DNA from: Salminus brasiliensis
Taxonomy: Eukaryota; Chordata; Actinopteri; Characiformes; Bryconidae
Length of the DNA: 64,000 nt
Assembly (NCBI RefSeq): GCF_030463535.1
Contig: NC_132901.1
Coordinates: 4,038,640 to 4,102,639 of the forward strand
Reading direction: 5' to 3'
The notes under the pieces were generated by a model. That model made no database searches. It saw only the letters and a list, made by a program, of their open reading frames with translations, and was not told the origin of the DNA. Made by a program: the position numbers and the translations under genes. Shown here piece after piece: positions 5,381 to 38,203 of this stretch (its first letter is position 1; every line of letters begins with the position of its first letter).

Positions 5381-5814
5381 TCACCATATCTCAAAGCGCT
5401 GGTCTGACATAAAGAGCTGCTTCTGTGTAATTCTGTTGTTGAAGAGCCTGCAGAGACAAAACACTCATCACACATACAGTTAAGTAAGTTAAAGAAATGT
5501 ATAATGAAGTTGAATGTATATAGGCTATAACACTACAGGCTTCAGTTCATGGCTAAAATACAAGGTAATACAACAACTTAAATACTCAAGCCTGCCACTG
5601 CAGAAGACACCTCACTGAGTCATGAGTGTGTGAAGACAGACACACTAACACCCTTTAACATAATAATGCGCATGAAAAAGTCACTTTAGTGAGAAAAGTC
5701 ACCCTTTATAGATGCAAACACAAGACTCACCTTACTGTCTGTATGTGGCTGTTTGAGGAGACCACACGGTGCACACCCCCAGCCCCATGATCAGTGATGT
5801 TATTATTATTTAAA
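5381..5814 (-). CDS. Last two NLR exons: 84-bp LRR exon and terminal exon
   Basis: Exon 5814-5731 is exactly 84 nt (28 codons, phase 2/2) and encodes a ribonuclease-inhibitor-type LRR beginning LNNNNITDHGA after the split Asp codon. The 84-bp single-LRR exon is a hallmark of NLR genes. Exon 5447-5381 encodes LFNNRITQKQLFMSDQRFEI, one further Trp and TGA, which caps the LRR domain. The donor AG|GTGAGT lies at 5730 and acceptors are TTTTCCAG and CTCTGCAG. This exon pair anchors the 3' end of the gene. Both exons are too short to appear as ordinary open frames. Confidence 0.85.
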
Positions 5815-6642
5815 CTGGAAAACAGAGGAATAGAGTCTATTATAACACAAAACTCTCATATTACAACTCATATGATCACACAGCAGTGTGATCAGCACTC
5901 TCACTGCTAACTCACTCTAGGACGCAAATTTTGTGCAGGTGTGGAAGCAGCAGCTCCAGGCAGTGGTCAGTGAGCTGGCAGTGACTGAGGTCCAGTTCTG
6001 ACAGCCCTTCACAATGTTCCAGAACCAGCGCCAGTGACCTACAGGCCTGCAGATCCAGTGGGGTGTGACTGAGGTCCACTTCCTCACCCAGAGCCTGAGA
6101 GAGAGAGACAGCGCGCCTCACACACTCCGATTCAGTCCAAACATGGACAAGAGTCAGGAACTGTAGTAGCAGAGCTTTACTGCAGCTGAGTGAGAGAGAA
6201 AGAGATAGAGGGAGAGAGAGATAGACAGAGAAATATAGACAGATGCTATAATACAGATGTTTTTTCATTATGCAGAAAAAGTCTGAGTTTAGTTACATAT
6301 GTATATATTTTTACTTACATATCTATGTTTTGCTCTTTTCCCTTACCTCAGACTGACTTTGTGTATAATGGTGATAAGTTGCTCCACTCCAGCGTCCTCA
6401 ATCTCACAGTCCTGCAGACTGAGCTGAGTGTGTGTGGAAGCTCTCTGAATGGTCGTGGAGATGACTCTGCAGTCCTCAGTGCTCAGAGTCAGTGTGTTTG
6501 TGTGAGCTGTGAGGTCCAGAGTGGAGCTGCAGGAGAAGTCCAGTCTGTGCTGCAGAGCGGAGAGCAGAACTGCTGCTGCTGTTCCCTCAGAAACACTGCA
6601 GCAGTGGAGCAGCCTCAGCAACAGAAGCCTGTCAACACTGAA

Positions 6643-6684
<42 letters not shown>

Positions 6685-9600
6685 TTTCGTCCAACTTTAC
6701 TGGTCATATATATACTTTAACATGACCATTTTCCATCTCTCTCCCTTACAAGATAAATAAGCTGTGTTCTGATTGGCTACCCTTTTTGTACTTCATTTCT
6801 CTGAGCGTGTCAGCGTTTGAAAAGAGACGGTGGCTGGCATTGCACATACTGGTTGAGACATATTAAGTCTTTCCCCACCCTGTGTCGGGAGCATTGATAG
6901 TGTTAGGGGAAGCTATGAATGGGTGGGATAACTGGTGGTACCAAACTGGCAGGAAAAGGGCAAACTTTGGCAGACAAACAAACAACAGTGATTTAGAACA
7001 GGGTGTTTTACATTAAGACATGTCAAAACAGCCACATCCAGGCTTAGGCCTTAAAAAGTTAAAGACACCTGAGATTTGAGATGTGGTTCAGGAGAGGCAC
7101 AATTCGCTCTAGCTCCCCCTCTGGTATGGAGGCCCACAGCAGGCTGAGAGAGACTGTGCTGCAGTGCTGGAGGGTGAAGCAAAGGGCAGCCCAGTGAACA
7201 GAGTACAGATCTCTGTTGTTCAGGTTAATGAAATTCTCTGCTGAGCTCAGCAGGCAAGACACAGAGTGAGCAGAGCCAGTCTCATAGATCTCTCTGATGA
7301 TGGACAGAACAAAGCTGGTGCTCAGCCTGTGAAGAGGTCACACACACACACACATAGAGCATAGTTCTGCATAGTTAGAGCAAAGTTTCTGAAATATTGA
7401 ACAGCTTTGCAGTTGTGCATGTTTGTGTTTTACCTTCTGAGCTGAACTCTGTCCAGTACAGTGAGAAGTTCTCTGATGTTCTGTTGTTTAATGTTGCTCT
7501 TTCTGAAGTCCACAGTGACACAGTGATACTGCAGGAAATACTGAATCATTTTCCAGTTCAGAGAGCAGGGAGTCAAATCTCCACCCACTTTCTGTAGGAA
7601 ACACTGAGTAAACTCCTCTTCCTGAGCTTCATATACCACTACAAGCAGCTGCTGGAGAGTCTCATTGGATAACCTACACACATAGAAAACAACAACTTTA
7701 ATTAAGTGCTATAGCTGTAATAGCTGTAAGTATTCAATATTTAATATATAACATTCGTACAGACCTGATGGTCAGAGATCCCTGGTGGCACAGCAGGACA
7801 ATGAGAGACTGGACTTCCATTGTGTGTTCAGACAGGTTCACACACTGGACATTCCAGAGTCTCAGCAGAGAGGCTAAGCTGCTCAGGACCCTGGACAGCT
7901 CCCTCACTGACTGCTGTGTTCTGCTCAGGTCGAGTGAGAGCTCTTCAACACTCACTGGAACAGAAGCTCTCACTGCCCTCAGAGCTTTCACCATTTTCAC
8001 CACCATTGAACCACTCAGCCTGAAACATCACAGTGTAGGAAGATATGAAAAACTCAAATAAAGGAGAGTTTCAGTGATGTGTGTGAATGACCTTTGGGTT
8101 CAGACTTTTTTTTTATTTCAATACAATAATAAAGATCTATAGCCGTTCTAGACCCCGTACACCCCTAGCCACTTCCTCTCTAACCATGAATTAGAATCTG
8201 GATGAGCTCACTTTTTTAAACTTAATACCAATTATAACTCATTTCCTGTCACTCTGTGGTATCTACTGACATTAATGGAGTATATACACTGCTAATAGGA
8301 ACAATAATCAGATCTTGGTGTCACATTTGAATTTTTGAATCTCATTTCAAGTCATTTATTAAGACTGCCTGGTTGACATGACGGACCATGGACCATGAAG
8401 CACTCCTCAAAAATGTCTTCAACTGTAGTTTAAACAAGGACATCAAAATTACTCTAATTTTGACAACAGTGTTTGTAAAACAATCTATACTGCTTATAAT
8501 GACTTATTAGACTAATTAAAATGTATTGTATGTGGGTAAACATAAGTGAGATTGCTTTAACATTTAAAATGTTTGTGCTTTATAAAGCACAGAATCACAC
8601 AATCACTTCAAATTATGAGGACTACATCCATTTTTAATGTTTCAAACTAGTAAAACTACAAAAAATGGAAAGAACATAAGGAGGAAATTTGTGAAATTAT
8701 CATTCACAAACAACTAAAAAAAAACGTTTAGCTTTCATACTTGAGAGTGTGTAGGTGTTTAATATGTCTGAAGAGAACTCTGGCTCCTCTGAGAGAGATT
8801 TCTAGTGGGTTTAGAGTAAGGTTGAGCCTGGAGGTTGAGAGGCCCAGCACTCTTCCCACAGCCCTGCAGCTGGAAGTGGATAGCTTTTCTCCCAGAGAGA
8901 GAGTGAAGCCCAAAGCCTGAAGGAGAGAAGCCACCTGCTCTGCCGTAGGTTTCGTCCACAACACTTTACACAAGGACAGGAAACACTCCTCAGCACCACT
9001 AAAACACAAAATAAAAGCACTTACAAACAATATATTTAAATCTAGATATAGTTAATTCCAGTAAAGAAACATTTTTCATCTTTACAGCACAGTACCTTTT
9101 ACAGCACAAGGTTGATTCTTTACAACAGAACTGTACACCGTTTTAGATTGTAGCAGTTACCCCACCAGGCTAAATGAATCTGGAGCAGGATGTTAAATTT
9201 ACTGCACACACAGGAGTACATCTAAAAATACTTTGACTTCAATCAGGGAAAACATGAGTGCCTGAGAATTGAGAAAATGTGCATGTAGGTTTGTTCAAAA
9301 CAAATGTGTTGTTGGAAACAATGTTACCAAAGTTTTTTTTAGGTCTATTAACATGAATAACTGAACTATTGTAATGCAAAGAATGGTGCACACATGGGTG
9401 CATTATTAGTACTTATATGTACAGAAAATGTTCTTTGTTCATGCTAGTCCTGCCTTGAATTACTCCATAACCTTTTTGTTTTATAAAAATATATATGCAC
9501 AATGAACTGTGAGAAAAATGTAAGTGAAAACAATAGAAACAAACCTTAGCTGGGAGATGAAGGGCAGACACTGAAGGAAACTCCTTACTTCACTCTCTTC

Positions 9601-12600
9601 AACTGACCAGCCTCTCAGCTCTACTGGTTTCTTCACTGTTTGGAGTTTCAGCACTTCTAGGAGGAGGGAGCTCTTTCTCTCTGAGAGGTCTATGATCCAG
9701 ACTTCAGGAGCTGACTGGTAAACTGGCTGTAACACTGGAAGAACACTCCTGCCTGTTTCAGTCTCATACTTCTTCACATGTGAGTACAGATCCAGCAGAA
9801 AAGCACACTGATCAACAGGATCACACTCATTTTCAAAAAAAGGGAATGTTGTGTAGGTGCACACAAAGGCCAATGGCTTGGTGAAACTCTGCCCTGTAGC
9901 TGCATCCCACTCTACTGCTGCAGCAATCAGCTTCACCAGAAACTGCAGAACTGCACTTTGTTGTCGACAATACATGAAACTGTTTGAACAGAAACAGTAA
10001 AAAAAATTAAATCAAATGATCTACTAAACTTTACAATTTCTCTTTTAAAGAGTCAATACTGGCGCCAATCAGCATAGTCCTTACATTCCCTCAAGTGCCC
10101 CCCTCCCCAAGGTCATGCTTCCCACCACTAAAATCCTGCAGCACTACCAACTACACACAGGGATCTGTTCGTAGAACACTAAACACTTCATTGTGCCCTG
10201 AAATCATCAGATAACTGACAGTCTTACCTCAGCTGGGAGATGAAGGGAAGACACTGAAGGAAACTCCTCACTTCACTCTCTTCATCTGAGCAGCCTCTCA
10301 CCTCTACTGGTTTCTTCACTGTTTGGAGTTTCAGCACTTCTAGAAAGAGGGAGCTCTTTCTCTCTGAGAGGTCTATGATCCAGACTGCAGGAGCTGACTG
10401 GTAAACTGACTGTAATGCTGGAAGAACACTCCTGCCTGTTTCAGTCTCGTACTTCTTCACATGTGAGTACAGCTCCAGCAGAAAATCACAATGCACTGCA
10501 GCACCATATTTAAAAGGGAAGGATTTATAGGTACACACAGATGTCAGAAGCTTAGTGAAACTCTGCCCTGTAGCTGTATCACATTCAGCTGCTGCAGAAA
10601 TCAGCTTCACCAGAAACTGGACAAGTGCATGTCTTGACGTATTGTTCCCAAATCTGTTCAAATAAAGAGACAGAGTGTAGACTGAGAAGACCATGATTAA
10701 ATCATGCAGTTGGATGAAGAAAATTTCTCTTTTGGACAACGGATTCCTGTTGTCAATTAATCAAACTGATTAGTAGTGTAGTATTTGGCTTCCTCTAAAT
10801 GTGAAATCACACAATAATGCAGTAGAGAAAAGGTTGGCACATGCATCTGTCTAAGCATATGCATGTCAACTCGGACTAGAGGCTTAAGATTTGTGAAATG
10901 TCAGATATTGAAAATTAATAAAGGATATTTAGCCAACAGTAATACATTAACAACACCTGTGGTTTCTAACCTTCTAAATGCATTTGATTCTGCCTATCGA
11001 TATTGTGACAATCACAGCTCTGGGAAAAGTGCATTGCATTATGGTTATTTTAGTGAATTTATTTTTACTGCCAAACAAAGTAATCTCCAGCCATACAGAT
11101 AACTGACAGGTTTCGTACTCACCTCAGCTGGGAGATGTAGGGCAGACACTGAAAGAAACGCCTCACTTTAATCTCTTTATCTAAACCGTCTCTCAGCTCC
11201 ACTGGTTTCTTCACTGTTTGGAGTTTCAGCACATCTAGGAGGAGGGAGCTCTTTCTCTTTCTAAGGTCTATAATCCAGACTGCAGGAGCTGACTGGTAAA
11301 CAGGCTGTAATGCAGGAAGAACACTCTTGCCTGTTTCAGTCTCATAGTCATTCACATGTGAGTACAGATCCAGCAGAAAAGCACACTGATCAACAGGATC
11401 ACACTCATTTTCAAAAAAAGGGAAGGTTGTGTAGGTGCAAACAAATGCCAGTGGCTTAGTGAAATTCTGCCCTGTAGCTGCATCCCACTCTACTGCTGCA
11501 GCAATCAGCTTTACCAGAAACTGCAGAACTGCACTTTGTTGTCGACAATACATGAAACTGTTTGAACAGAGACAGATAAAAAAAGATTAAATCAAGTGAT
11601 CTACTAAACTTTACAATTTCTCTTTTAAAAAGTCAATACTGGCGCCAATCAGCATAGTCCTTACATTCCCTCAAGTGCCCCCCCTCCCCAAGGTCATGCT
11701 TCTCACCACTAAAATCCTGCAGCACTACCAACTACACACAGGGATCTGTCCGTGGAACACTAAACACTTCATTGTGCCCTGAAATCATCAGATAACTGAC
11801 AGTCTTTATACTCACCTCAGCTGGGAGATGAAGGGAAGACACTGAAGGAAACTCATCACTTCACTCTCTTCATCTGACCAGCCTCTCAGCTCTACTGGTT
11901 TCTTCACTGTTTGGAGTTTCAGCACTTCTAGGAGGAGGGAGCTCTTTCTCTCTGAGAGGTCTATGATCCAGACTTCAGGAGCTGACTGGTAAACTGGCTG
12001 CAATGCTGGAAGAACACTCCTGCCTGTTTCAGTCTCATACTTCTTCACATGTGAGTACAGATCCAACAGGAAATCTCCTTTTTTACCACAGGCACATGAC
12101 ATCAACTCCTCAACAGTGGTGTGAATATTTGCGTTCTGATGAAGAGCTGCCTGCAGACACAGATCCAGTAGGAATGAATTCACTCTCTTTCTCCACTGAA
12201 CACTGTCACTATATGGAGATGTGAAACTGCAGAGAGAGGAAACAAGTGAGAATATATAATAATAAGAGTAAAAACAAAATACAACATTTTAAGACATTTC
12301 ATGATACACGATATGCCTCATCAAAACATTGTTAAGAACTATGCACTGAATGATGCTCATTCCATGTTCATTCACACACTGCACAGCACTAAATTTAGTT
12401 AAGCTCAACTTTGTAATAAAGCCTACAACTGATTAATGATATTTAAAGATCCAGCATACGTTTTTAAATTTCTGTGGAAAATACATTTTAGCTGAGAATT
12501 TTATGCATTTTAATAAACGTCCAAACATTTTACGTTAAAATGTTTTACAAACATTTAAAATTTGTGTTTTTATACTTTCATTTAGCTGTATGGGTGTGAA

Positions 12601-15600
12601 CCATATCCAATTACATATTAAGCATCATCTTTTAAATGATAAAAACATTTAGTGCTAGGAGAACGATAAATCAGACCATAAAAAAGCAGAGAGTAGTTAT
12701 AGTATATGAATAACGTAACTTATCTCAGAGGTAAAATGCTTCAAACCAGAATTTGGAAGTTAGATTTATGTTATGAATGTTAAAACATACAAACCATATT
12801 TCAGTTTCAGTATGAAACAGTGCAGCTGGCCTGAGATTTACCAGTAAGTTACCAGTTTAGTAAGCTACCCCTACTTACTGAATCTTGCATGTGAAATTGC
12901 TTTTGTAAACTCAACATGTCCCCTATTAATGTAGGAACATGCACTGGATGATGTGGTAGGATGATTTTTGCACCTCTCAGTGCATAATGTAAATTGTGTT
13001 ATACAAAAGAATGCAGACTAGCTATTTGGTTAGGACCTCACCTCAGCTGGGAGACGTAGGGCAGACACTGAAGAAAACTCCTCACTTCACTCTCTTCAAC
13101 TGACCAGCCTCTCAGCTCTACTGGTTTCTTCACTGTTTGGAGTTTCAACACTTCTAGGAGGAGGGAGCTCTTTCTCTTTGAGAGGTCTATGTTCCAGACT
13201 GCAGGAGCTGACTGGTAAACAATCTGTAATGCTGGAAGAACACTCATGCCTGTTTTAATCTCATAGTCCTTTAAATGTGAGTATAGATCCAGCAGAAAAT
13301 CTTCACCATCTACATACGACATCAGTTTCTCTACAGTTTTGTGAATATTCTTTTTCTGATGAACAGCTGCTTGCAGACATAGATCCAGCAGGAACGAATG
13401 CACTCTCTTTCTCCACTCACCAGTCTCACTCTGAGTGGATTTAAAACTGCATAACAGGAAACAATTCAGAAACACAAAAGCATGAGTATGGGTGATGGTT
13501 TGAACAAGACACAATATGCTTTAAATAATATAGATATTTTAGATTTCATAAGTTGAAACACGATACTTGTACAGTGCTGTTTAGTTTGATGTTTCACATC
13601 TAGTTATGCATGGCAAATTATCCTCTTTCAGGCACTTTTTAGCAAGAACAAGAGAAAAGGCAGCAACACTAAAGTTCAGCAGAAACTCTGTAGCTAGTCT
13701 TCTTGTGATAGTGATAGTTTCAAGGTCCAACAGTGAACGGATATGCCCTTTAGAGTCTTGGTGGCCTCCCTCACCAGTCTCCCTCGTGCATGGTCACTCA
13801 CATGTGTAAATCTAGGCCATAGAGTGCCATATTCCATTCAATTCCTAATGAATGGATGGATTTAAATGAACTACAGTGAATGTTTAAGGATTGGGAATTA
13901 TTTCCTTGTATTCATACCCTGAATTATACACAGCTGGAAGAGAGTCTCAGTCCACGTAAACAACTCACTGCTATCTACATACATATTCTTCTGAAACAAG
14001 ACCAGGCAAGCCCAGTGTTGCCTGACTGCCATCGGTATTTGTCACCTAAGCATCGCTGATATGCCATCAACGTTGGGTTGTAACGGTACATGTAAAAAAA
14101 AAAAAAGTAACTGTATTTCATTGCAGTTGCAATGAAACAGTAAGACATTTGATTTTGTTACATGACTTGGAAACTTTTACTGTCTATAAAAGGTATTCAC
14201 CCCCTGGGATATTGTCCCCTTTTATTGCTGTTATAAATGGAACCAAGGTAAATATAATATGCCTTTTTACTATAATTAACAAAAATGCTTTAATGTCAAA
14301 GTGAAACAGGTTACTACAAAGTAATGTAAATTAAATAAAATAAGTGACTCAAAGTCTTGGGGGCCTCTTTCACTAGTACTCCCTCCTTCTTTCATGGTCA
14401 CTCACGTGTAAATCTGCTCTAGAGTACACATTTACCAGTTTAATCTAAGAGAGTATATTCTTTTTATAGGCACAATATTTTTAGGTAAATGCTACATGAT
14501 GCTGCATTAAACGTACAATAAAAAAAGTTGTCTTTCTATATAAAATATGTATATATTTTTTTCTTACCTCAGCTGGGAGATGTAGGGCAGATACTGAAGG
14601 AACCTCCTCACTTCACTCTCTTCATCTGACCAACCTCTCAGCACTACTGGTTTCTTCACTGTTTGGAATTTCAGCACTTCTAGAAAGAGGGAGCTCTTTG
14701 TCTCTGAGAGGTCTATGTTCCAGACTGCAGGAGCTGACCGGTAAACTGGCTGTAATGCTGGAAGAACACTCCTGCCTGTTTTAGTCTCATACTTCTTCAT
14801 ATGTGAGAACAGATCCAGCAAGAAATCATCTACACCAGCATCTGCACATGACAGTTCTTCTATACTTTCAAAAGGATCTTCCTGAAGAAGAGTTGCTTGC
14901 AGGGACAGATTAAGTAGGAACGACTTTACTCTTTCTCTCCACTCGTCACTCTCACTCTGAGGAGATCTGAATCTAAAGAGACAGGAAGTGATCCAGAAAC
15001 ATAAGAAAGAAAGAAATACCATCAGTAGTGAAAGTACCTTTCCACACTTCTGTAACTACAACACAAATATTCAAACTTCATACTATATTCCAGTGTCTAA
15101 CTGTCTTTTAAAAAAGAAACATGAGCTATGCTAGAGTGTACAGCTGCAAAAAAATAACCCTTTGGAAGTCCCTGGATTACTGCATTAAAGCAATAACACA
15201 CCTTTTTTGTCAACACTTTGTCTAATTGTAAATTGCTGTACAACCAGGTCTTTAGCAATGCTTTTGTAGCCTTTTGCATTTCTACAAGCATTCTGAAAGT
15301 CGTTTGCATCATGCATTTTCACTACTAACCAATACGTCTAAGGAGTAGTGCAATCTGTTAGTGACCAAGCTTTGTGGGCCTTTATTTAATAGGCAAAACC
15401 CACATTTCCAATTTCATCTCCTTTCCTCACTTCAGTTCACTTACTTTCTTTAGCCTGCACTGTGGATGTTTAATCATTGTTTTTAATAAAAGACATGAAC
15501 AGTACAACTGTGTGTGTCTGTGTTACAAGTTTAGTTTCATTATATGTCTATAATTGTGACTTATATAGTGATCAGAAAATATTTTATTTGTAACCAGGGT

Positions 15601-27600: not shown

Positions 27601-30600
27601 TTTGAAGACATTTCATGATACACGATATGCCTCATCAAAACATTGTTAAGAACTATGCACTAAATGATGATCATTCAATGTTCATTCACACACTGCACTG
27701 CACTAAATTTAGTTAAGCTCAACTTTGTAATAAAGCCTACAACTGATTAATGATATTTAAAGATCCAGCATACGTTTTTAAATTTCTGTGGAAAATACAT
27801 TTTAGCTGAGAATTTTATGCATTTTAATAAACGTCCAAACATTTTACGTTAAAATGTTTTACAAACATTTAAAATGAGTGTTTTTATACTTTCATTTAGC
27901 TGTATGGGTGTGAACCATATCCAATTACATATTAAGCATCATCTTTTAAATGATAAAAACATTTAGTGCTAGGAGAACACTAAATCAGACCATAAAAAAG
28001 CAAAGAGTAGTTATAGTATATGAATAACATAACTTATCTCAGAGGTAAAATGCTTCAAACCAGAATGTGGAAGTTAGATTTATGTTATGAATGTTAAAAC
28101 ATACAAACCACACTTCAGTTTCAGTATGAAACAGTGCAGCTGGCCTGAGATTTACCAGTAAATTACCAGTTTAGTAAGCTACCCCTACTTACTGAATCTT
28201 GCATGTGAAATTGCTTTTGTAAACTCGACATGTCCCCTATTAATGTAGGAACATGCACTGGATGATGTGGTAGGATGATTCAGTGCATAATGTAAAATGT
28301 GCTATACAAAAGAATGCAGACTAGCTATTTGGTTAGGACCTCACCTCAGCTGGGAGATGTAGGGCAGACACTGAAGGAAACTCCTCACTTCACTCTCTTC
28401 AACTGACCAGCCTCTCAGCTTTACTGGTTTCTTCACTGTTTGGAGTTTCAACACTTCTAGGAGGAGGGAGCTCTTTCTCTTTGAGAGGTCTATGATCCAG
28501 ACTGCAGGAGCTGACTGGTAAACAGGCTGTAATGCTGGAAGAACACTCATGCCTGTTTGAATCTCATAGTCCTTTAAATGTGAGTATAGATCCAGCAGAA
28601 AATCTTCACCATCTACATACGACATCAGTTTCTCTACAGTTTTGTGAATATTCCTTTTCTGATGAACAGCTGCTTGCAGACATAGATCCAGCAGGAACGA
28701 ATGCACTCTTTTTCTCCACTCACCAGTCGCACTCTGAGTGGATTTAAAACTGCATAACAAGAAACAATTCAGAAACACACAAGCAAGAGTATGGGTGATA
28801 ATATGCTTTAAATAACATAGATATTTTAGATTTGATAAGTTGAAACACGATACTTATACAGTGCTGTTTAGTTTGATGTTTCACATCTAGTTATGCATGG
28901 CAAATTATCCTCTTTCAGGCACTTTTTAGCAAGAACAAGAGAAAAGGCAGCAACACTAAAGTTCAGCAGAAACTCTGTAGCTAGTCTTCTTGTGATAGTG
29001 ATAGTTTCAAGGTCCAAAAGTGAACGGATATGCCCTTTAGAGTCTTGGTGGCCTCCCTCATCAGTCTCCCCTGTGCATGGTCACTCACATGTGTAAATCT
29101 AGGCCATAGAGTGCCATATTCCATTCAATTCCTAATGAATGGATGGATTTAAATGAACTACAGTGAATGTTCAGTGATTGGGAATTATTTCCTTGTATTC
29201 ATCCTCTGAATTATACACAACATCTGACTTCTTCCATGTTTCTTCACACAGATTTCCAAGTACTGGAAGAGAGTCTCAGTCCACATAAACAACTCACTGC
29301 TATCTACATACATATACTTCTGAAACCAGACCAGGCAAGCCCAGTGTTGCCTGACTGCCATGTCGTCTAGTCTGATGGCCAAAAAGAACTCCCTTTCAGT
29401 TGACCTCAGAGTCTCTTGGTGCCTCAGTAACTTTCTTTGCTGCTCTCCCATAAAGCTTAGACTGATGAAGAACCCAGGCAACTGTTTGTATACAGAGTCT
29501 CCCCAAACTCATTAACAGTTTTCAAAGTCTTGGGGGCCTCTTTCACTAGTACTCCCTCCTTCTTTCATGGTCACTCACATGTGTAAATCTGCTCTAGAGT
29601 ACACATTTACCAGTTTAATCTAAGAGAGTATATTCTTTTTATAGGCACAATATTTTTAGGTAAATGCTACATGCTGCATTAAACGTACAATAAAAAAGTT
29701 GTCTTTCTATATAAAATATGTATATATATATTTTTTTACCTCAGCTGGGAGATGTAGGGCAGATACTGAAGGAACTTCCTCACTTCACTCTCTTCATCTG
29801 ACCAGCCTCTCAGCTTTACTGGTTTCTTCACTGTTTGGAATTTCAGCACTTCTAGAAAGAGGGAGCTCTTTGTCTCTGAGAGGTCTATGTTCCAGACTGC
29901 AGGAGATGACCGGTAAACTGGCTGTAATGCTGGAAGAACACTCCTGCCTGTTTTAGTCTCGTACTTCTTCATATGTGAGAACAGATCCAGCAAGAAATCA
30001 TCTACACCAGCATCTGCACATGACAGTTCTTCTATACTTTCAAAAGGATCTTCCTGAAGAAGAGTTGCTTGCAGGGACAGATTAAGTAGGAACGACTTTA
30101 CTCTTTCTCTCCACTCGTCACTCTCACTCTGAGGAGATCTGAATCTAAAGAGACAGGAAGTGATCCAGAAACATAAGAAAGAAAGAAATACCATCAGTAG
30201 TGAAAGTACCTTTCCACACTTCTGTTACTACAACACAAATATTTAAACTTCATACTGTATTCCAGTGTCTAACTGTCTTTTAAAAAAGAAACATGAGCTA
30301 TGCTAGAGTGTACAGCTGCAAAAAAATAACCCTTTGGAAGTCCCTGGATTACTGCATTAAAGCAATACCACACCTTTTTTGTCGACACTTTGTCTAATTG
30401 TAAATTGCTGTACAACCAGGTTTTGAGCAATGCTTTTGTAGCCTTTTGCATTTCTACAAGCATTCTGAAAGTCGTTTGCATCATGCATTTTCACTACTAA
30501 CCAATACTTCTAAGGAGTAGTGCAATCTGTTAGTGACCAAGCTTTGTAGGCCTTTATTTAATAGGCAAAACCCACATTTCCAATTTCATCTCCTTTCCTC

Positions 30601-33600
30601 ACTTCAGTTCACTTACTTTCTCTAGCCTGCACTGTGGATGTTTAATCATTGTTTTTAATAAAAGACATGAACAGTACAACTGTGTGTGTCTGTGTTACAA
30701 GTTTAGTTTCATTATATGTCTATAATTGTGACTTATATAGTGATCAGAAAATATTTTATTTGTAACCAGGGTGAAAATCCAAGTAATTACAAAGGCTTAC
30801 TTACTTTGTTTTGCAACTGTATATTCACTATTTACATTTTGCATTTTAACACAATACAGACCATCTACCTTAAGAGGGACTATGACACTCAGTATAACAA
30901 CCTGTAACTGAGCAAATCGGACCGTGATGTAAAACAAACTTTGTACAATGATTTCTGTGTACCATTACACCCTTGTTGGTGACAATTAAAAATAAATAAA
31001 GATTTTAAACCATTGGTTTATACGGTGAAGAACCAGTGTACCAGTGTTACCAAGTTGGAATGACTAATGCAAGGCTGCTAACTGCAATTGCATATATTAC
31101 AGATAATATTGTCTGCTACAAATTGCTCAGTTTCTAACACAAATATATTTCCAGCATGCACTTATGCATATCACAGCTGCAAAACACGCAGTGTGCAAGA
31201 AGCTGAAAATAAAGCATGCTACAGTTAAAAAAATACAATGAAAACATTAAAATGTATCAGCCATGAAAAGTCTTGATATTACAGTAAGACTTACCTCAGC
31301 TGGGATATGTAGGGCATACACTGAAGGAAACGCCTCACTACACCCTCTTCATCTGACCAGCCTCTCAACACTACTGGTTTCTTCGATGTTTGGAGTTTCA
31401 GGACTTCTAGGAAGAGGGAGCTCTTACTCTTCTTAAGGTTAATGTTCCAGACTTCAGGAGCTGACTGGTAAACTGGCTGTAATGCTGGAAGAACACTCCT
31501 GCCTGTTTCAGTCTCATACTTCTTCACATGTGAGAACAGATCCAGCAGGAACTCACACTGATCTGCGGTATTAGTATAATCATCATCTTCATCAAAAGGG
31601 AAGGTTGTGTAGGTGCACACAAATGTCAGCAGCTTGGTTAAACTCTGCCCTGTAGCTGAATCCCACTCTGCTGCTGCGGCAATCAGCTTCACCAAAAACC
31701 GGAGAAGTGTACTTTGTTGTCGACAGAACTCAAAACTGTTAGAAAACAGGAGCCAATTATTATTTCATGTCTGTAATAGAAGTGACTATTTTTCTCTGGA
31801 CTACTTATTTGAACTGATAACCAGTGCTTTATTCCTCGTCTCAAGTGTCCCATTAAATAGAAAAGGGAGGAATCTGGAACTACAAATAAAACACTTCAAC
31901 CCTTCAAAGCATGTTTCGTCCGTTATATCATCTTCTAGAACTACCAATAAAACAATGATAGTGCAGTACAGTAATATATGTGGAGTACACTAAACACTCT
32001 TCTGTGTCCTGATACCAAACAGATAAATAACAGGCTACTTTATAAATCAGCCCAGAGGAAGAGGTTGGATCAGCTGACTTACACTCACGGTGTATAACAG
32101 CAATAAAGGAATTTTTTATTTATTTATTTATTTAAAAATATTTTTCTATCGCAATAAGACTCACCTCAGCTGGGAGATGTAGGGCAGACACTGAAGAAAA
32201 ATCCTCACTACACTCTCTTCAACTGACCAGCCTCTCAGCTTTACTGGTTTCTTCACTGTTTGGAGTTTCAGCACTTCTAGAAAGAGGGAGCTCTTTCTCT
32301 CTGAGAGGTTTATGTTCCAGACTGCAGGAACTGACTGGTAAACTGGCTGTAATGCTGGAAGAACACTCCTGCCTAGTTTCCACTCATAATCCCTCACATG
32401 GGAGTACAGATCCAGCAGAAAATCTTCTACATCAGCATGTGTGCATGATATTAGTTTCTCGACAGCTTGAACAGATCCTATTTGATGGAGAGCAGCTTGT
32501 AGACACAGATCCAGCAGGAATGAATTCACTTTCTTTCTCCACTCATCATTCTCACTCTGTGGAGATTTGAATCTGCAGAGACAGAAAGAGAATCAGAAAT
32601 GCAACAGTAGATGCAGTCAAAATCTCTTCAGGAGCATCTAGAATTGTTCTAGATTACGTTTTCTATGTGTTCTAATGCCAACATCTCACATCTCATAAAA
32701 CACTCATAATAAAATGCAAGAAGATCAGGAGACTACAGAAGGACCGCAATAAACAAGGAAGGACCACAAAAAATAAAAAGTACCATTTATTTTCCATTTC
32801 CTATCTTAATCACAGCTAATTTGAAATGAAATGACTGCTCTAAGTATGCAGCACCATACATTCAGAAAGGAAAATGCTAGCATTGGTGTCCTATAAGCAT
32901 ATGCAGAATACCATTTTATATTGAGCACTGTCAGGCACATCTCTTAGAAAGACAGGATTTTGTGTAAACAAAGGCCTTTCTGGTTAGGACAGGACATACA
33001 GAGAAAGAAAACCTGCTGAGACACTTCTAATAACTAATGCAACACAGCTAACTGCAATCACATGTTTTTTTTAAATAAACATGGCAAACACACCAATAAG
33101 TATTAATTGCATGGCAACCCCACTTGGAAGTGCTGCAAGCATCTCTTACAGTGCTCTTCTAATGGAAAACATCTGAAAATAAAACATCAAATCAAACACT
33201 CACTGAGATCATACATATAACACTTCATCATTAAACATTTTTAAAATACAACACTCACCTCAGCTGGGAGATGTAGGGCAGACACTGAAGGAAACTCCTC
33301 ATTTCATTCTCTTCATCTGACCAGCCTCTCAGCTTTACTGGTTTCTTCACTGTTTGGAGTCTCAGCACTTCTAGAAAGAGGGGGCTCTTTCTCTCTGAGA
33401 GGTCTATGATCCAGACTGCAGGAGCTGACTGGTAAACTGGCTGTAATGCTGGAAGAACACTCCTGCCTGTTTCAGTCTCATAGTCCTTCACATGTGAGTA
33501 CAGATCCAGCAGAAAAGCACACTGATCAACAGGATCACACTCATTTTCAAAAAAAGGGAATGTTGTGTAGGTGCATACAAAGGCAAGTGGCTTGGTAAAA

Positions 33601-36600
33601 TTCTGCCCTGTAGCTGCATCCCACTCTACTGCTGCAGCAATCAGCTTCACCAGAAACTGCAGAACTGCACTTTGTTGTCGACAATACATGAAACTGTTTG
33701 AACAGAGACAGATAAAAAAGATTAAATCAAGTGATCTACTAAACTTTACAATTTCTCTTTTAAAAAGTCGATACTGGCGCCAATCAGCATAGTCCTTACA
33801 TTCCCTCAAGTGCCCCCCTCCCCAAGGTCATGCTTCCGACCACTAAAATCCTGCAGCACTACCAACTACACAGAGATCTGTCCGTAGAACACTAAACACT
33901 TCATTGTGCCCTGAAATCATCAGATAACTGACAGTCTTTACACTCACCTCAGCTGGGAGATGAAGGGAAGACACTGAAGGAAACTCATCACTTCACTCTC
34001 TTCATCTGAGCAGCCTCTCAGCTCTACTGGTTTCTTTACTGTTTGGAGTTTCAGCACTTCTAGGAGGAGGGAGCTCTTTCTCTCTGAGAGATCTACGATC
34101 CAGACTGCTGGAATTAATCCATATAACTTTTTTAAACAGTCAAATTCTGCATCTGTTTTCACAAGGGATTGCAGCTTTATCAAAAAATCACAAACATGAA
34201 ATGGATCCTCTTGGAAAAACTTCAGAACAGATGATACAATGCCACTCTGCTGCCCATTTGATTCAAAAACTGCAGCTCTTAGCACAAGATCACGCTGAAT
34301 GGATTCAATTATCTGTAATTGGTGCTCAGTCTGTATCAGAGAATTATCAGGAAATTCAAACCTGTGGATTTAAACACATATATTAACACAAAGATTTTTT
34401 GAACAAAAAGCTTTTATTTAATGATTACAATACTTAATTTTTTATGCCTAAAAAAGGGTTTTTAGCTAGGTAACTAGAGTTCTAAGCTAGTGACTTTCTA
34501 GGCTGTTAAAAAAGGACACGAAGTTCTCATGACTAAGAACTTCAATGTGTAAACTTAGACAGGAGTTTCAAAGTTGTTAGTAGGGCTGCAACTGTTAAAT
34601 ATTTTTGGAATCGAGTATTCTGTTGATTTTGTGATCGCTTAATTGAGTAATCCTATTTGTCCTTAGTTCTTAATTATTAAAGGAAAAAAGTGGTGTACCC
34701 CCTGCAATAGGCCATCTGAGAATAAATAATACATAACAAAAAGTATAAAGGTACAAATGATTACAAATACTGTAGGCTCTAACAAGTGCTAGTGTTAACA
34801 GTTAGTAATCGTAAACATATGCTGTAGTATGTACTGTTATGGGAGGACAGGTCCGTTTTTACAGTGTATACACTGCACACCGGTCTCTTCATTTTCCACC
34901 ATTGCCATAGAGAGTAAAATAAACTGCGCCGTGTAAAACAATGAGACTGGAGCTGCGCAGTAGTCTACAAGGCAGGAGTGATGCGATAGCAAAGACATTT
35001 AAAAGGGATGGACTTTGGTGACATTAATTATACGAAGCCTCGAGGCAAAGAATTTGCCTTGAACATTTTTTGTAATCAAATTATTCGAGTTACTCGAATA
35101 ATCGTTTCAGGCCTAGTTGTTACCAAATAAATCAATAGTTATCAGCTAACTCCTGGGATTCAGATTGGTGAACTATGAATTCAACATTGTACAAGAAAGC
35201 ATTTGAAGAGAATATAGCAGAGCCATACAAAACACACATTAATATGGACATAAAAAGATTAAATTAAGGATTATAGAATGGCCAAGACATTTTACCCCTA
35301 ACGAAATTATACCCTTTTCTACTAAACTGAGAAACTTTAGCTTTTGCTAAATCTTGGAAAATAGATTTTCCTTGTTACAATTCTTGTTAGCACTGTATTA
35401 CACAGATTTCAGAGTAAATGCAATGCCATATGCCAATATGCAAATAATTACAAAGTGCAGGCATTACTCACCTTAGAGAATTTATTCGTGGAAGTGCCTC
35501 AAAAATCATGCTGCAGGCAGCACTGCTGATCTGATCTGTGCCTTGTCTACAGTGTAGATGAAGGCAGATCTTCTCTGAGCTTTCATTCAGGAATTTTCCA
35601 GCCTTTCTAAATGTGGATGCATCACCCAAAATAGAAAGGTGAATTTGTTTCCCATAGACATCCAGTAAAGTTGTTAAATCTTGGGGTCTCTTATAACCCA
35701 GCGCTAACATCCACATATGGCAGACGGTAGAAGATGTAGCCCTGCAATCATCATAGCTTTAGTTATTGCAATTACTACTGTTACATAGCAAAGACAATCA
35801 CAAAGCCTTTAAGAAACTAACAACCTTACATCAGTGTATACATACCCAAGATGTGCAAGATGTGGTGTGGTTCTGAGAATCATCTCGACCCCAGTGTCAG
35901 ATATAATGCAGTCCTCCAAGCTCAGATGAACCTGTTTGCTACTGGACTGGCTGATCACATAAGACACTGCACAGCACTGATGTGGATCAAGGTCATTTCC
36001 ACTCAAGTCTAAATGATAGTTCACTTTCTCCAGGAACAGCAGGCAAGACTTAGGTGACTGGGACTCATACAAACACTGACACACAAAAACAGCATTAACA
36101 TCATCTTCATCACCCATTATCTGTTCATGCTGAACAAAAGTGTTCATGACTTTCATGAAAAGTCCATCAGAAGCTCTTCTGATCTGATCTTCTAAGAAGA
36201 GATTCTTCAAGAGATCAAGGTTCTGTTGTGATAAAAGTCCGCAGATAAAAGGAATCAGGTGTTTCAGGTGCTTTTGTTCTTCTGCTAGACAAAGTTGAAG
36301 AATCTTGTCAATTTCATCTGGATTTCCAAGAAGCCACAGTGCAGAGAAGAATTCCTGTACAGTGCTGTGCAGAAATGCATGGAACTCTTTCACAGAGGTG
36401 GGGGTGGCTTCAACTGTGATTTTCCTCAGAAAAACTTTACTGATTTCAATCTCATCGCTGTCTATGTTTGGTAGGTTTACAGTTTTCTGCAGTGTTGCAC
36501 TGAAGGCACTTTCCATCAAGGAAAACAGTTGATCTCTAATGTCTTTCATGTATTTGTCGATTTGCCTGAAGGTTTTGTTTCCAGCTTTTTTCAAGTCTTG

Positions 36601-38203
36601 GCGGAGGATGTGGACATACATTTCTGTAATGGTCAGTGGATGCCTAGCAGCTGTGAGGTTGCTGAAAGAACTACAGGTTGCAACCATGAATGCATACATT
36701 GGGACGTGGCAAAGGCTTATTAGCTCCTGGTTGTTCAGAACAATGTTTAAAATTTCAGCCTCAGAACATAGCATATGAGCCAAGTAAATCCGAACTGATT
36801 CCTCACTGAACCCTTGGACATAGACTCTAAAAGCAGGCCAGTCTGACAAAAAAGAATCATCCTCCAACTCTGATCTGCATGTTATCACAATCTTAGCCTC
36901 TGGAAGAAGGTCACCATCCAGTATTTTCTGTAAAAGAGGGTTTTTCTGTGTAGTATTGATGCCATCAAACACAATGATAACATTTTCTGAGTGTTCCTCA
37001 ATATCCTGCCACACCTCCTTTCTATCCTTTTCCAGTGGTTTACAGTTCAGGTCAAACAGAAGGGACTCCAAGGACATGAGGTTCCAGATTTGGGCTAGTG
37101 TAGCTTCATCAAAGTAAAACATGTAGTCTAATACTCTGCTGTCTTTTTGGGACCAGATGGAGAGCATTTCCTGGACAAGTGACGTTTTTCCTATGCCAGG
37201 TTTTCCTATGAGCAGGATTGCCTTTTCACGACTGTGCAGAAGGTCATCAGGTGATAGTTTCTGTTTCTGCACAGGAAGGTAACTCCTAAGTTTCTTGTGA
37301 CGAAGTTTCTTACATTTGTTGTTTTTCTTTTTAATTTTACTTTGTGCAGAGTTCCCATTTGTGTCAGTGTCGAGGACTACGGGTACAAAAGTGAACTTTC
37401 CTTCTGTCTTGTGCTTTAGGCGTCTGCTGCACTGCTCCCACTGTTTCCTTAAAATGTTTAAAGCTTTTGTTTTAAGCTGTTTCTGGTAGTCGTGACAAGG
37501 CTTTGTACCTAAAATTCATTACAAAGGTACAATTATTATACAATGTTTGTTAGACATATTTAAATGCAGATTTACATACAACAATCCAAATTACATATTC
37601 CATTTTTGTCACAGGCTGATACTGAAATGGTAAAACATGTTTTGTTACAACAAGGATTTAATACTGTCACACTTTTCAGTGACCTACAACATTTTTAAAG
37701 TTACAGTTCATGTATTTCTTATGTTTATGTTTTTATTTTTTTATTTATTTCAGTAACACTGATTTTGTATATTTGTCACACTTCATTGTTTCATATATTT
37801 AAACAAAATCTAATGCATGGCATCTAAGACAACATGAGTAAATATAGTACTAACACTAAGACCAGGGCTCACCAACACTGTAGTCAGCCTCTGTGTCTTC
37901 TCTGAAAGGAAAACAGCAGATCCAGTGATGTGAGTCCTGATGTAACGTCCTCTTCCTGGTGATGTCCAGGATCCTGAGTAACTCATAACTGGCTCCTTCC
38001 CCTTTCTTACTGACACAGTCCAGTATAAACCTGGCTTTGTCAAAATTTCTTCTCTCTGCTTTGAGAGCATCAACTTCAGAACCGTTCAGTACCTTGCGCT
38101 GGTAGAGATTCTCAGTGATGAGAGGAAAGTTCTTCAGACGAGTCACCAGATCTGCTCTGGCATTTCTGAGGTATTCAGCTGCACTTTGCTGAGCACAGGC
38201 CAT
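5381..38203 (-). CDS. Giant CARD-NACHT-LRR receptor (NLR family), 35 coding exons
   Basis: This is a predicted cytoplasmic or nucleocytoplasmic innate immune receptor of the NLR family. Coding exons 5' to 3' are 38203-37873 (CARD), 37508-35846 (linker and NACHT), 35741-35472, 34361-33948, 23 more repeat exons from 33693 down to 9545, then 8998-8741, 8019-7765, 7673-7434, 7326-7069, 6637-6347, 6185-5916, 5814-5731 and 5447-5381 (TGA). Junction phase is 1 after the CARD exon and 2 at every later junction, and all acceptors are AG. The joined CDS is 14,082 nt, about 4,693 aa, with no in-frame stop. Ordinary vertebrate NLRs are roughly 1,000-1,900 aa, so the excess is the 24-exon array (about 3,365 aa). 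The CARD, basic linker, NACHT and long LRR order recalls NLRC5, but I cannot assign orthology. Alternatives are several transcripts using subsets of exons, or two adjacent genes, although no internal promoter or start exon is evident. Confidence 0.85.
5916..8998 (-). CDS. Six C-terminal LRR-type NLR exons
   Basis: Exons 8998-8741 (86 codons), 8019-7765 (85), 7673-7434 (80), 7326-7069 (86), 6637-6347 (97) and 6185-5916 (90) are all phase 2/2. They are RI-like leucine-rich segments with diverged sequences, unlike the nearly identical array upstream. Recognisable LRR cores are LSLQDCEIEDAGVEQL in the 6347 exon and LSELDLSHCQLTDHCLELLL in the 5916 exon. The 6347 exon acceptor directly follows a (TG)n tract on the minus strand. 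The 5916 exon has two in-frame acceptors six bases apart (CAG then CTGCAG, giving starts at 6185 or 6179), so a two-residue splice variant is possible. The donors of the 7765 exon (GTCTGT) and 7069 exon (GTGTCT) are weak. Confidence 0.75.
6642..6680. repeat. (CA)n microsatellite
   Basis: This is a run of CA dinucleotides adjoining the acceptor of NLR exon 6347-6637. On the transcript strand it is a TG run just upstream of TTTTTTCAG. Length changes here could affect acceptor strength. Confidence 0.9.
9545..10653 (-). CDS. Two terminal NLR repeat exons outside the triplication
   Basis: Exon 10653-10228 (426 nt) is a diverged class I repeat exon: it starts RFGNNTSRHA instead of SFMYCRQQ and lacks the acidic loop of its relatives. 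Exon 9979-9545 (435 nt) is a typical class I (f-type) exon. Both are phase 2/2 and open. They lie after the last complete seven-exon unit and look like products of an older, smaller duplication of about 0.69 kb (exon plus one intron), the same step that made f and f' inside each unit. The 9545 exon has a poor donor, AG|GTTTGT, whereas most array donors are GTGAGT or GTAAGT. Confidence 0.8.
11123..18525 (-). CDS. NLR repeat-exon unit 3 (seven exons)
   Basis: Exons in transcript order are f 18525-18091 (435 nt), e 17400-16993 (408), d 16563-16123 (441), c 14972-14568 (405), b 13446-13042 (405), a 12226-11816 (411) and f' 11557-11123 (435). Every exon is a multiple of three and phase 2/2. Each encodes a variable helical N-terminal half of about 50-60 residues, then a conserved LRR-like core containing FLLDLYSH, ETGRSVLPALQPVYQSAPAV, KSSLLLEVLKLQT, KKPVELRGWSDEESEVRSFL and QCLPYISQLR. 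Class I exons (d, f, f') begin with a CRQQS..FLVKLIAAA type half. Class II exons (a, b, c, e) begin with SPQSES.EWR..V.SFLL.L.LQA. The core resembles the LRR region of fish NLR proteins; a ligand-binding or oligomer-scaffolding role is inference. Confidence 0.85.
13600..14420. mobile_element. Degenerate dispersed transposon remnant in the b-c intron
   Basis: The stretch holds words typical of a common fish repeat: a GGTGGCCTCCCTCACCAGTC-like block, TGGTCACTCAC, a TTGTATTCAT segment and GTATTCACCCCCTGGGATA near 14193. The same element is at the equivalent place in the other two units (about 21250-22060 and 28890-29600) and a related piece lies at 55560-55920. It therefore predates the triplication. 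I recognise it by memory of the repeat, not by alignment. Confidence 0.4.
18784..26179 (-). CDS. NLR repeat-exon unit 2 (seven exons)
   Basis: Exons in transcript order are f 26179-25745, e 25055-24648, d 24218-23778, c 22619-22215, b 21094-20690, a 19885-19475 and f' 19218-18784, with the same lengths and phases as unit 3. The d exon protein is identical over the 134 residues compared in all three units. The e exon differs from the other units by a single Ser-to-Pro change (IGPVQAV for IGSVQAV). The c donor is AG|GTAAAA followed by an A run, somewhat weak. The start-to-start offset to unit 3 is 7,647-7,661 bp for every exon, and introns match almost base for base, which indicates recent unequal exchange or gene conversion. 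Confidence 0.85.
21250..22060. mobile_element. Same transposon remnant, unit 2 copy
   Basis: This is the positional equivalent of 13600-14420 with only scattered substitutions and short indels (for example a shorter A run near 21742). It was duplicated together with the exons. Confidence 0.4.
26437..33693 (-). CDS. NLR repeat-exon unit 1 (seven exons, first in the transcript)
   Basis: Exons in transcript order are f 33693-33259, e 32572-32165, d 31735-31295, c 30144-29740, b 28749-28345, a 27540-27130 and f' 26871-26437. All are open and phase 2/2. Offsets to unit 2 are 7,653-7,655 bp for b, a and f' but only 7,514-7,525 bp for f, e, d and c. The ~130-bp difference therefore lies in the b-c intron, where the transposon remnant has a different internal structure (29220-29520). 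Substitutions in the f' and a exons (for example LRLQSVKKPVVL in place of LKLQTVKKPVEL) are shared patchily between units, a sign of gene conversion. Confidence 0.85.
28890..29600. mobile_element. Same transposon remnant, unit 1 copy with extra internal segment
   Basis: This copy keeps a segment at about 29220-29520 (including CTCTCCCATAAAGCTTAGAC and GGAGACTCTGT-type blocks, read on either strand) that is missing or replaced in units 2 and 3. The retained part resembles 55660-55810, so this copy is probably closer to the ancestral element and units 2 and 3 carry a deletion. Confidence 0.4.
33948..34361 (-). CDS. First NLR repeat exon, chimeric
   Basis: The exon is 414 nt, phase 2/2, with acceptor AATCCACAG and donor AG|GTGAGTG. 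It begins RFEFPDNSLIQTEHQLQ and its N-terminal half matches neither class I nor class II. Its last ~52 residues (from AVWIVDLSERKSS to FLQCLPFISQLR) are nearly identical to array members. The intron that follows (33694-33947) is also the array-type f/f' intron. The exon thus looks like an old founder whose 3' half and downstream intron were overwritten by conversion, or a product of unequal exchange with a breakpoint inside the exon. Confidence 0.8.
34573..35123. mobile_element. Non-autonomous hAT-type element with target-site duplication
   Basis: The element spans 34581-35115. It begins TAGGGCTGCAAC and ends ATCGTTTCAGGCCTA, imperfect terminal inverted repeats of the type seen in hAT elements, with subterminal ATTCGAGT/ACTCGAAT-like palindromic motifs. 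It is flanked by GTTGTTAG (34573-34580) and GTTGTTAC (35116-35123), an 8-bp duplication with one mismatch, which is the hAT signature length. It sits in the NLR intron between the bridging exon and the first repeat exon and carries no transposase frame. Confidence 0.75.
35472..35741 (-). CDS. NLR bridging exon after the NACHT exon
   Basis: The exon has 90 codons and is phase 2/2. The acceptor TGATTGCAG gives GG|G (Gly) and then ATSSTVCHMWMLALG; the donor is AG|GTGAGT. The body (IHLSILGDAS, KICLHLHCRQ, MIFEALPRINSLR) resembles an LRR segment and ends in the same I.SLR pattern as the array exons (ISQLR). It may therefore be a distant member or ancestor of the repeat family, but the two cannot be aligned convincingly by eye. 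Confidence 0.75.
35846..37508 (-). CDS. NLR linker and NACHT NTPase exon
   Basis: The exon is 1,663 nt, with acceptor AATTTTAG at 37509 and donor GG|GTATGT at 35845. Residue numbers refer to the joined protein. A basic linker (KIKKKNNKCKKLRHKKLRS, about 160-185) could be a nuclear localisation signal. Walker A is GKPGIGKTS (about 212-220). Walker B is VIIVFDGINTT with Asp near 292. Sensor 1 is KIVITCRSE. The GFSEESVRIYL segment and CHVPMYAF (the C..P motif of NACHT) follow, and an LRR-like end (QVHLSLEDCIISDTGVEMIL) closes the exon. Typical NLR Walker B reads hhhhDGhDE; here the positions after DG are I-N-T, so the second acidic residue is missing. No FISNA segment is evident. NLR NACHT domains bind ATP or GTP and drive oligomerisation. 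Confidence 0.9.
37873..38203 (-). CDS. NLR first coding exon: CARD
   Basis: The ATG at 38203-38201 begins MACAQQSAAEYLRNARADLV, and the segment to about residue 90 fits the six-helix CARD pattern of fish inflammasome-type adaptors and NLRs: FPLITENLYQRKVLN, GSEVDALKAERRNFDKARF and KGEGASYELLRIL. CARD domains recruit downstream CARD proteins by homotypic contact. The exon ends GTT G|GTGAGC (phase 1) and joins GT ACA at 37508 to encode GTKPCHDYQ. Upstream, a TCTCAG acceptor at 38255 implies a non-coding first exon. Confidence 0.85.

Follow-up and report, generated by a model that had tools for sequence, protein, structure and literature searches.

The analysed window comprises 64,000 nt of the Salminus brasiliensis genome (GCF_030463535.1, NC_132901.1, positions 4,038,640-4,102,639; this contig is referred to as C28). 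Its minus strand carries a gene of 35 exons: a CARD exon, a NACHT exon, a post-NACHT exon, 24 repeat exons (R1 to R24) and eight terminal exons (D1 to D8). The coding sequence, rebuilt from the raw sequence, runs from 38203 to 5381, is 14,082 nt long and encodes a protein of 4,693 amino acids with a predicted mass of 537 kDa; the sole stop is terminal. All 34 introns are of the GT-AG type. The single reading of about 4,700 residues from a CARD-NACHT head and 24 repeat exons, proposed in an earlier note on this DNA, is therefore borne out. The array totals 10,095 nt, 71.7% of the coding sequence, in agreement with the share of about 70% given there.

Exon 1 (37873-38203) contains the start ATG and a CARD (Pfam CARD, 8.7e-10), whose best solved relatives are the CARDs of NOD1 (CARD4), with an E value of 4e-4. 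It is the only CARD exon in the gene model, as against the two CARDs of NOD2. Exon 2 (35846-37508) encodes the NACHT, a winged-helix region and an HD2 (Pfam NACHT, 5.9e-23; NLRC4_HD2, 3.5e-9); the sequence GKPGIGKT, which we take to be Walker A, is intact. With a profile of the four NACHTs found in this family (see below), the nearest solved relative was 5irm (1e-33; 5irm and 5irl are recorded as ‘Uncharacterized protein’ and are presumably rabbit NOD2), followed by NLRP3 (3e-20). An N-terminal CARD and a NACHT with HD2 are features of a NOD-like receptor (NLR). No FISNA match was obtained in the NACHT exons of the four genes (the window exon at E up to 1, the four exons at E up to 0.1), and there was no Pfam match to B30.2 among the exons scanned. 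The post-NACHT exon (35472-35741) is defined by its splice sites and frame and belongs to no Pfam family.

The repeat exons measure 405 nt (six exons), 408 nt (three), 411 nt (three), 414 nt (one), 426 nt (one), 435 nt (seven) and 441 nt (three). As had been claimed for exons of 405-441 nt, every one of the 24 is divisible by three, begins and ends in phase 2, is free of stops and has an AG acceptor and a GT donor. The ends were set by a common donor motif and the starts were picked among AG sites giving an open, three-divisible exon; under this procedure such an exon was obtainable in 24 of 24 cases. By way of a chance comparison, AG..GT spans of the same seven lengths in the region 39000-64000 had an open matching frame in 8 of 818 cases (minus strand) and 24 of 715 (plus strand). 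The post-NACHT exon and D1 to D7 likewise run from phase 2 to phase 2. The donors of R5, R12 and R24 are poor by eye, an observation that is neutral between constitutive and splice-diversified readings of the array.

The terminal exons follow at 8741-8998 (D1), 7765-8019 (D2), 7434-7673 (D3) and 7069-7326 (D4), the last three being assigned from frame, splice sites and comparison with paralogues. D5 (6347-6637) and D6 (5916-6185) are LRR-like, with matches to Pfam LRR_6 (E 0.075) and LRR_1 (0.0036) that both fall below the cut-off, and are candidate C-terminal LRRs. D7 (5731-5814), an exon of 84 nt placed by frame and splice sites, is LRR-like by eye, and D8 (5381-5447), placed by frame, is the last coding exon and ends in TGA.

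Several further features lie elsewhere in the window. On the plus strand, an open frame at 51943-53259 encodes a membrane-like hydrophobic stretch, behind which lies a 42-nt repeat (52095-53177; 25.8 copies, 92% match) that contributes 14 coiled-coil residues per unit. The product may be a C-type-lectin-like type II membrane protein whose stalk is expandable. At 57219-57560 a frame of similar make holds 2.3 copies and matches the Ly49 N-terminus below cut-off (1.1e-5). A 54-nt tandem array of 21 copies, strongly C-rich on the plus strand, occupies 44778-45930, and the GC skew of the 2-kb bin 44001-46000 is -0.535. A satellite-like array with periods of 135, 155 and 290 nt is found at 61295-62858.

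The genome (1.07 Gb in 103 contigs) was searched with single exons, the match counts being lower bounds. One repeat exon as query gave at least 50 matches, all within five loci. Besides the window gene these are a same-strand neighbour some 28 kb upstream (C28up, C28:4104k-4124k; CARD, NACHT and seven retained repeat exons), a locus 1.1 Mb off on the same contig (C28b, C28:2893k-2916k, in full 2893473-2916315; four retained open repeat exons and D1 to D8), a locus on contig C3 (C3:1591k-1612k; CARD, NACHT and eight retained repeat exons) and one on contig C9 (C9:9435k-9452k; CARD, NACHT and five). D6 as query matched at least five times, once in each locus. With the NACHT exon, four copies of this type came up, at 100, 89, 46 and 42% identity; the window NACHT stands well apart from the remaining NACHTs in the genome, the next best having an E value of 8e-14 and 26% identity. 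In all four copies, matches to CARD, NACHT, array and D1 to D6 follow one another in the same order and on the same strand with open frames, and 24, 7, 8 and 5 repeat exons are retained. This order, conserved across paralogues whose NACHT differs at silent sites by 0.69-0.74 (C3 and C9), is the strongest evidence that NACHT and array belong to one gene. A division into two separate genes, one encoding CARD-NACHT and the other the array, is rejected, as the array follows all four NACHT copies found in the same order and on the same strand. What stands of the exon-array CARD-NACHT receptor design suggested in the earlier note is one gene with an array able to gain or lose exons in frame.

The paralogues are not complete in every part. 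Homologues of the post-NACHT exon were found in C28up and C3, and none was found in the C9 gene. D1 is also present in C28up, C28b and C9, while the C3 match is partial and without clean splice sites; D7 was not found in C3, nor D8 in C9. In the 70 kb searched around C28b (C28:2884000-2953999) neither a CARD nor a NACHT was matched; the locus is either a headless array gene or a young pseudogene. Isolated matches to D2 and D3 on the plus strand at C28:2889032-2889537, opposite to the C28b array, are read as the remnant of a further copy. In C28up, a decayed repeat exon (C28:4114580-4115119) with stops and without a downstream half sits inside an otherwise intact array; it fits a tolerance of exon loss.

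The 24 window exons and 28 paralogous rows gave 52 rows, of which 48 (24, 7, 4, 8 and 5 for the window gene, C28up, C28b, C3 and C9) were used; in these, AG and GT bounds of one and the same phase could be placed with no stop between them, at a wide variety of lengths. Phase was imposed in choosing the bounds in window and paralogues alike, and the symmetry of the paralogous exons is thus not independent. The four rows left out are two from C28up with stops, which are pieces of the one decayed exon, and two from C28b, one with two stops and the other a fragment without clean splice sites. Exons 5 to 7 of C3, whose donor sits 12 nt beyond the conserved end motif, were cut at that motif.

Comparison of the repeat exons with one another divides each into two unequal parts. 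Nine exon types of the window gene were compared in 30-nt bins. In the upstream half the per-site difference is 38-46% in the three bins for which all 36 pairs are comparable, and 10-25% in three others with only 6-10 pairs. Over the last ~86 codons the difference is 7-14%, and it jumps to 58-76% at the first intron bases. An upstream half of ~50-60 codons thus stays divergent, whereas the downstream ~86 codons are homogenised; the median pS within the window gene is 0.55 for the former and 0.12 for the latter. The trees of the two halves (identical rows merged, leaving 40 and 43 of 48 rows) disagree. The upstream halves place class B exons from every one of the five loci in one group (97/91), and the class A side, also drawn from all five, is weak (77/81). 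In the downstream-half tree the C3 exons come together (100/99), as do the C9 exons (90/76), regardless of class; the C28 exons are poorly resolved and the bootstrap had not settled. Beyond what the earlier note contained, each repeat exon is a hybrid of an old upstream class and a homogenised downstream half. Repeat-exon trees mislead unless the halves are separated.

The homogenisation extends between genes. Between the window gene and C3, the silent difference is 0.72 in the CARD, 0.69 in the NACHT, 0.39-0.66 in D2 to D6 and 0.62 in the upstream halves, as against 0.155 in the downstream halves. The downstream half has the lower silent difference in 192 of 192 pairs with C3, in 96 of 96 with C28b and in 165 of 168 with C28up. 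R9 and one C28b exon, more than 1.1 Mb apart, show zero silent difference over the ~62 silent sites of the downstream half; in the D exons these two loci are 21-40% different at silent sites. When one downstream half was used as a DNA query, 40 of 47 candidate matches were scored, and all of these lie in the four family loci on C28 and C3, the eight in C3 at 87-90% identity. With C9, the downstream half has the lower silent difference in 101 of 120 pairs, and both halves are far diverged. With the contigs C28 and C3 taken as two chromosomes, homogenisation that is confined to one part of an exon and yet spans two apparent chromosomes is, to our knowledge, unusual.

Constraint at the nucleotide level was considered as the cause of the low silent divergence and rejected. 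It explains the pattern poorly because the C9 copies vary freely at these silent positions: compared with the window gene, C9 has in the downstream half a median pS of 0.62, near saturation, and a pN of 0.28, and the motifs of that half persist in C9. The pattern is best explained by ectopic gene conversion and unequal crossing-over, which would act within the homologous part of the exon. Incompatible site pairs are more frequent downstream than upstream in the window gene (290 of 1326 versus 146 of 1485) and in C28up (106 of 171 versus 222 of 861); they are not in C3 (6 of 66 versus 106 of 1128) or C9 (438 of 741 versus 48 of 78). R1 and the first C28up exon were left out of these four-gamete counts, and C28b has too few sites to be counted. 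A run-length mosaic test on the downstream half, with R1 left out, gave a moderate result, 10 of 500 and 6 of 500 permutations reaching the observed value.

Within the window most of the array is a triplicated block, which the earlier note had not described; nor had it described the four other array loci. R1 (33948-34361), whose upstream half is a type of its own and whose counterpart is the first repeat exon of C28up, precedes three copies of one 7-exon block, each of 7.5-7.65 kb. These and all other repeat exons are placed by frame and splice sites. The first copy (26437-33693, R2 to R8) comprises the class A exons R2 (33259-33693), R4 (31295-31735) and R8 (26437-26871) and the class B exons R3 (32165-32572), R5 (29740-30144), R6 (28345-28749) and R7 (27130-27540). 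In the second (18784-26179, R9 to R15), R9 (25745-26179), R11 (23778-24218) and R15 (18784-19218) are of class A and R10 (24648-25055), R12 (22215-22619), R13 (20690-21094) and R14 (19475-19885) of class B. The third (11123-18525, R16 to R22) has R16 (18091-18525), R18 (16123-16563) and R22 (11123-11557) in class A and R17 (16993-17400), R19 (14568-14972), R20 (13042-13446) and R21 (11816-12226) in class B. Two further class A exons, the divergent R23 (10228-10653) and R24 (9545-9979), complete the array. The alignments that define the blocks start within the downstream half of R1 (34112) and stop 27 nt beyond R22 (11096). Between copies dS is 0.025-0.033 and dN/dS 0.55-0.71; intron divergence is 1.6-3.8% plus indels, and the intron between R5 and R6 is ~11% different and differs in length by ~130 bp. 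The C3 array has expanded separately and recently, with four near-identical repeat exons in a row, spaced ~2.2 kb apart. Given the tripling in the window and this separate expansion, array growth is recurrent.

Between genes, pN/pS in CARD, NACHT and D1 to D6 is 0.09-0.65, as expected of working genes. The post-NACHT exon gives 0.71, 0.81 and 1.11 in three comparisons. The highest value is that between the window gene and C28up, where the NACHT has 0.45 (Fisher p 0.015 on rounded counts) and protein identity is 54% in the post-NACHT exon, 99% in the CARD and 89% in the NACHT. This exon may be a candidate site of diversifying selection. In the downstream halves pN/pS exceeds 1 within C3 (1.42) and within C28b (2.07), on few changes. 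Between block copies replacements are fewer than neutral, with p of 0.02, 0.08 and 0.16, significant in one of three comparisons that are not independent; constraint on the array is weak. Because variable sites are spread over the downstream half and the fold model is unreliable, we claim no concentration at predicted concave LRR positions.

The nature of the fold encoded by the repeat exon was also considered. Searched one by one against Pfam, the 24 exons gave chance-level matches only and none to Pfam LRR, and a profile of all 24 against PDB sequences gave a best E value of 0.84, which is not credible. The structure prediction of a single repeat that the earlier note had called for was run on R16 with AlphaFold, the 24 window exons serving as the alignment. 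The model is poor (mean pLDDT 61), with an unreliable LRR-like part and low-confidence helices at 7-28, 33-41, 54-75, 80-89, 91-94, 103-114 and 126-135, a helical prediction that covers the upstream two thirds; Foldseek gave no structural match (best E 4.4). The last ~55 residues, with the pattern VWIIDL / PVELRG / ISQLRF, may be LRR-like, as judged from that pattern and from exon borders that fall just after a hydrophobic-x-x-L motif resembling that of the D exons; profile comparison with the D exons does not support this. To the eye the D exons look homologous to the downstream part of the repeat exon, but this was rejected as unsupported: hhalign gave a probability below 3% for D1 to D6 and for the post-NACHT exon. 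Class A exons have an upstream helical segment similar to the one with which their downstream half begins, and hhalign, at a probability of 89%, supports an internal duplication; with 10% for class B, such a duplication is not supported there. R1 and the first C28up exon were omitted from two of the hhalign profiles. Since the folded model is poor and without a structural match, a putative binding role for the array is assigned by position only.

Taken together, these observations suggest a single, intact NOD-like receptor gene that belongs to a small subfamily in this genome and has a putative sensor array evolving by in-frame exon gain, loss and conversion; we put the probability of this reading at roughly 70%. 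Recombination, as unequal crossing-over and gene conversion, would pair copies in register within the homogenised part of the exon. Such in-register pairing would add or remove whole exons or blocks and leave frame and splice sites unharmed. By homology, the protein would be a cytosolic, autoinhibited ATPase switch that oligomerises via its NACHT and signals via its NOD1-like CARD, and the array would serve as a surface for sensing or scaffolding, its length and its types of upstream half determining what binds. By default most exons would be included constitutively, with regulated skipping possible.

The earlier note had suggested that exon skipping could give splicing diversity; on that proposal the array would be a menu of exons, different subsets of which are joined in different cells. 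That the 24 repeat exons, the post-NACHT exon and D1 to D7 can all be joined in phase 2 is in keeping with such a proposal, as are a human NLRP3 isoform lacking an LRR exon (PMC6642158, in its accessible text) and the brown-algal ROCO LRR exons, also of phase 2 and alternatively spliced (PMC11378527, likewise). Splicing diversity cannot, however, be deduced from frame symmetry by itself, since the same accessible text of PMC6642158 reports that human NLRs have LRR exons that are strictly frame-preserving in general; the symmetry is then not specific to skipping, and we consider a splice-diversified receptor unlikely. It is likewise improbable that the array is neutral sprawl, lengthened by unequal crossing-over with little effect while function resides in the CARD, NACHT and terminal exons only. 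The weak constraint between block copies, the decayed exon of C28up and the headless C28b locus would all suit such a history, but frame and splice sites are kept in 24 of 24 window exons and in 24 others in the paralogues, and the persistence of downstream-half motifs in C9 at near-saturated silent sites (median pS 0.62, pN 0.28) also speaks against it.

An assembly error, which the earlier note had named as a threat to its reading, is unlikely as the source of the array, because the assembly has 103 contigs for 1.07 Gb and because the block copies differ in their introns (1.6-3.8%) and by indels. A narrower version holds that the three 7-exon blocks are partly an artefact, allelic copies having been set in tandem. 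The long block alignments are 95.9-98.6% identical, and allelic divergence in some fishes perhaps reaches this range. The same contig number, the intron differences (including the R5 to R6 intron) and the fact that there are three copies and not two argue against such an artefact, which we regard as very improbable; even a single block would still leave 10 repeat exons, the number that remains when two extra copies are subtracted. A bolder extension of the main reading, offered tentatively and rather to be doubted than expected, is a vertebrate germline receptor family with one half-exon module that would be continually copied between arrays on different chromosomes and another half that would contribute the diversity of types. 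Recombination, and possibly splicing, would then reshuffle receptor length and composition within the species.

The locus is a tangible example of an intracellular receptor with an expandable in-frame exon array as its putative sensing region, and its paralogues bring the number of array states in this genome to five. Long reads from populations can measure how long the array is, which of the two classes each upstream half belongs to and how the homogenised downstream half varies, so that the diversification of vertebrate NLRs by exon gain, loss and conversion becomes a directly testable question.

In the open-access literature searched, we found no description of such an array, and the family may well be annotated elsewhere. 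The accessible parts of a fish NLR review of 2025 (PMC12436146), a paper on zebrafish NLR copy number (PMC11192531) and the round goby genome paper (PMC6988351) contain nothing resembling it. The accessible text of Laing et al. 2008 (PMC2268669) lists NLR-B2, a CARD-NACHT gene of zebrafish that does not belong to the NOD set and might be related to the window gene.

Among known systems, the gene resembles the NOD1/NOD2 branch of the NLRs in having a CARD, a NACHT and C-terminal repeats, its CARD matching NOD1 best and its NACHT 5irm/5irl among solved structures. It differs from that branch in its 24 exons of 135-147 codons and its 4,693 residues; in most NOD and NLRC genes there is reportedly one 28-aa LRR per exon (PMC6642158, accessible text). 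Hoss et al. 2019, in the same text (PMC6642158), describe the LRR exons of human NLRs as strictly frame-preserving, with a fixed border and usually one or two LRRs each. On that account the phase symmetry seen here is ordinary; the exon size and number are not. The array shares with the modular LRR exons of the NLRP type its frame-preserving repeated exons of constant phase (24 of 24 from phase 2 to phase 2). The NLRP3 exons, as given in that text, have 171 nt and two LRRs, whereas those found here have 405-441 nt, predicted helices and a segment that is LRR-like by pattern. Exons of 135-147 codons also depart from the one or two 28-29-aa LRRs per exon of that type, and the recent block duplication and inter-gene homogenisation set the array further apart.

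The fish NLR-C or NLR-B30.2 genes, a different NLR family, are alike in their variable number of repeat exons, shuffling and part-wise conversion. In zebrafish NLR-B30.2 genes, Howe et al. 2016 report, in the accessible part of the paper, 0-6 variable LRR exons, a range given for groups 1, 2a and 3, together with exon shuffling and gene conversion acting on separate gene parts (PMC4852459). The present family, unlike these, has no FISNA match in its four NACHT exons and no B30.2 match, and its array reaches 24 exons. The closest analogue of such an exon array, as far as the accessible text of PMC11378527 goes, is found in the LRR-ROCO genes of brown algae, where candidate immune receptors carry phase-2 repeat-exon arrays that are shuffled and alternatively spliced. 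These belong to a distant eukaryote, use a ROC-COR switch domain and have exons of 72 nt with one LRR each. On the bolder and rather doubtful extension given above, the fish gene family would be an animal counterpart of these exon-shuffled candidate immune receptors.
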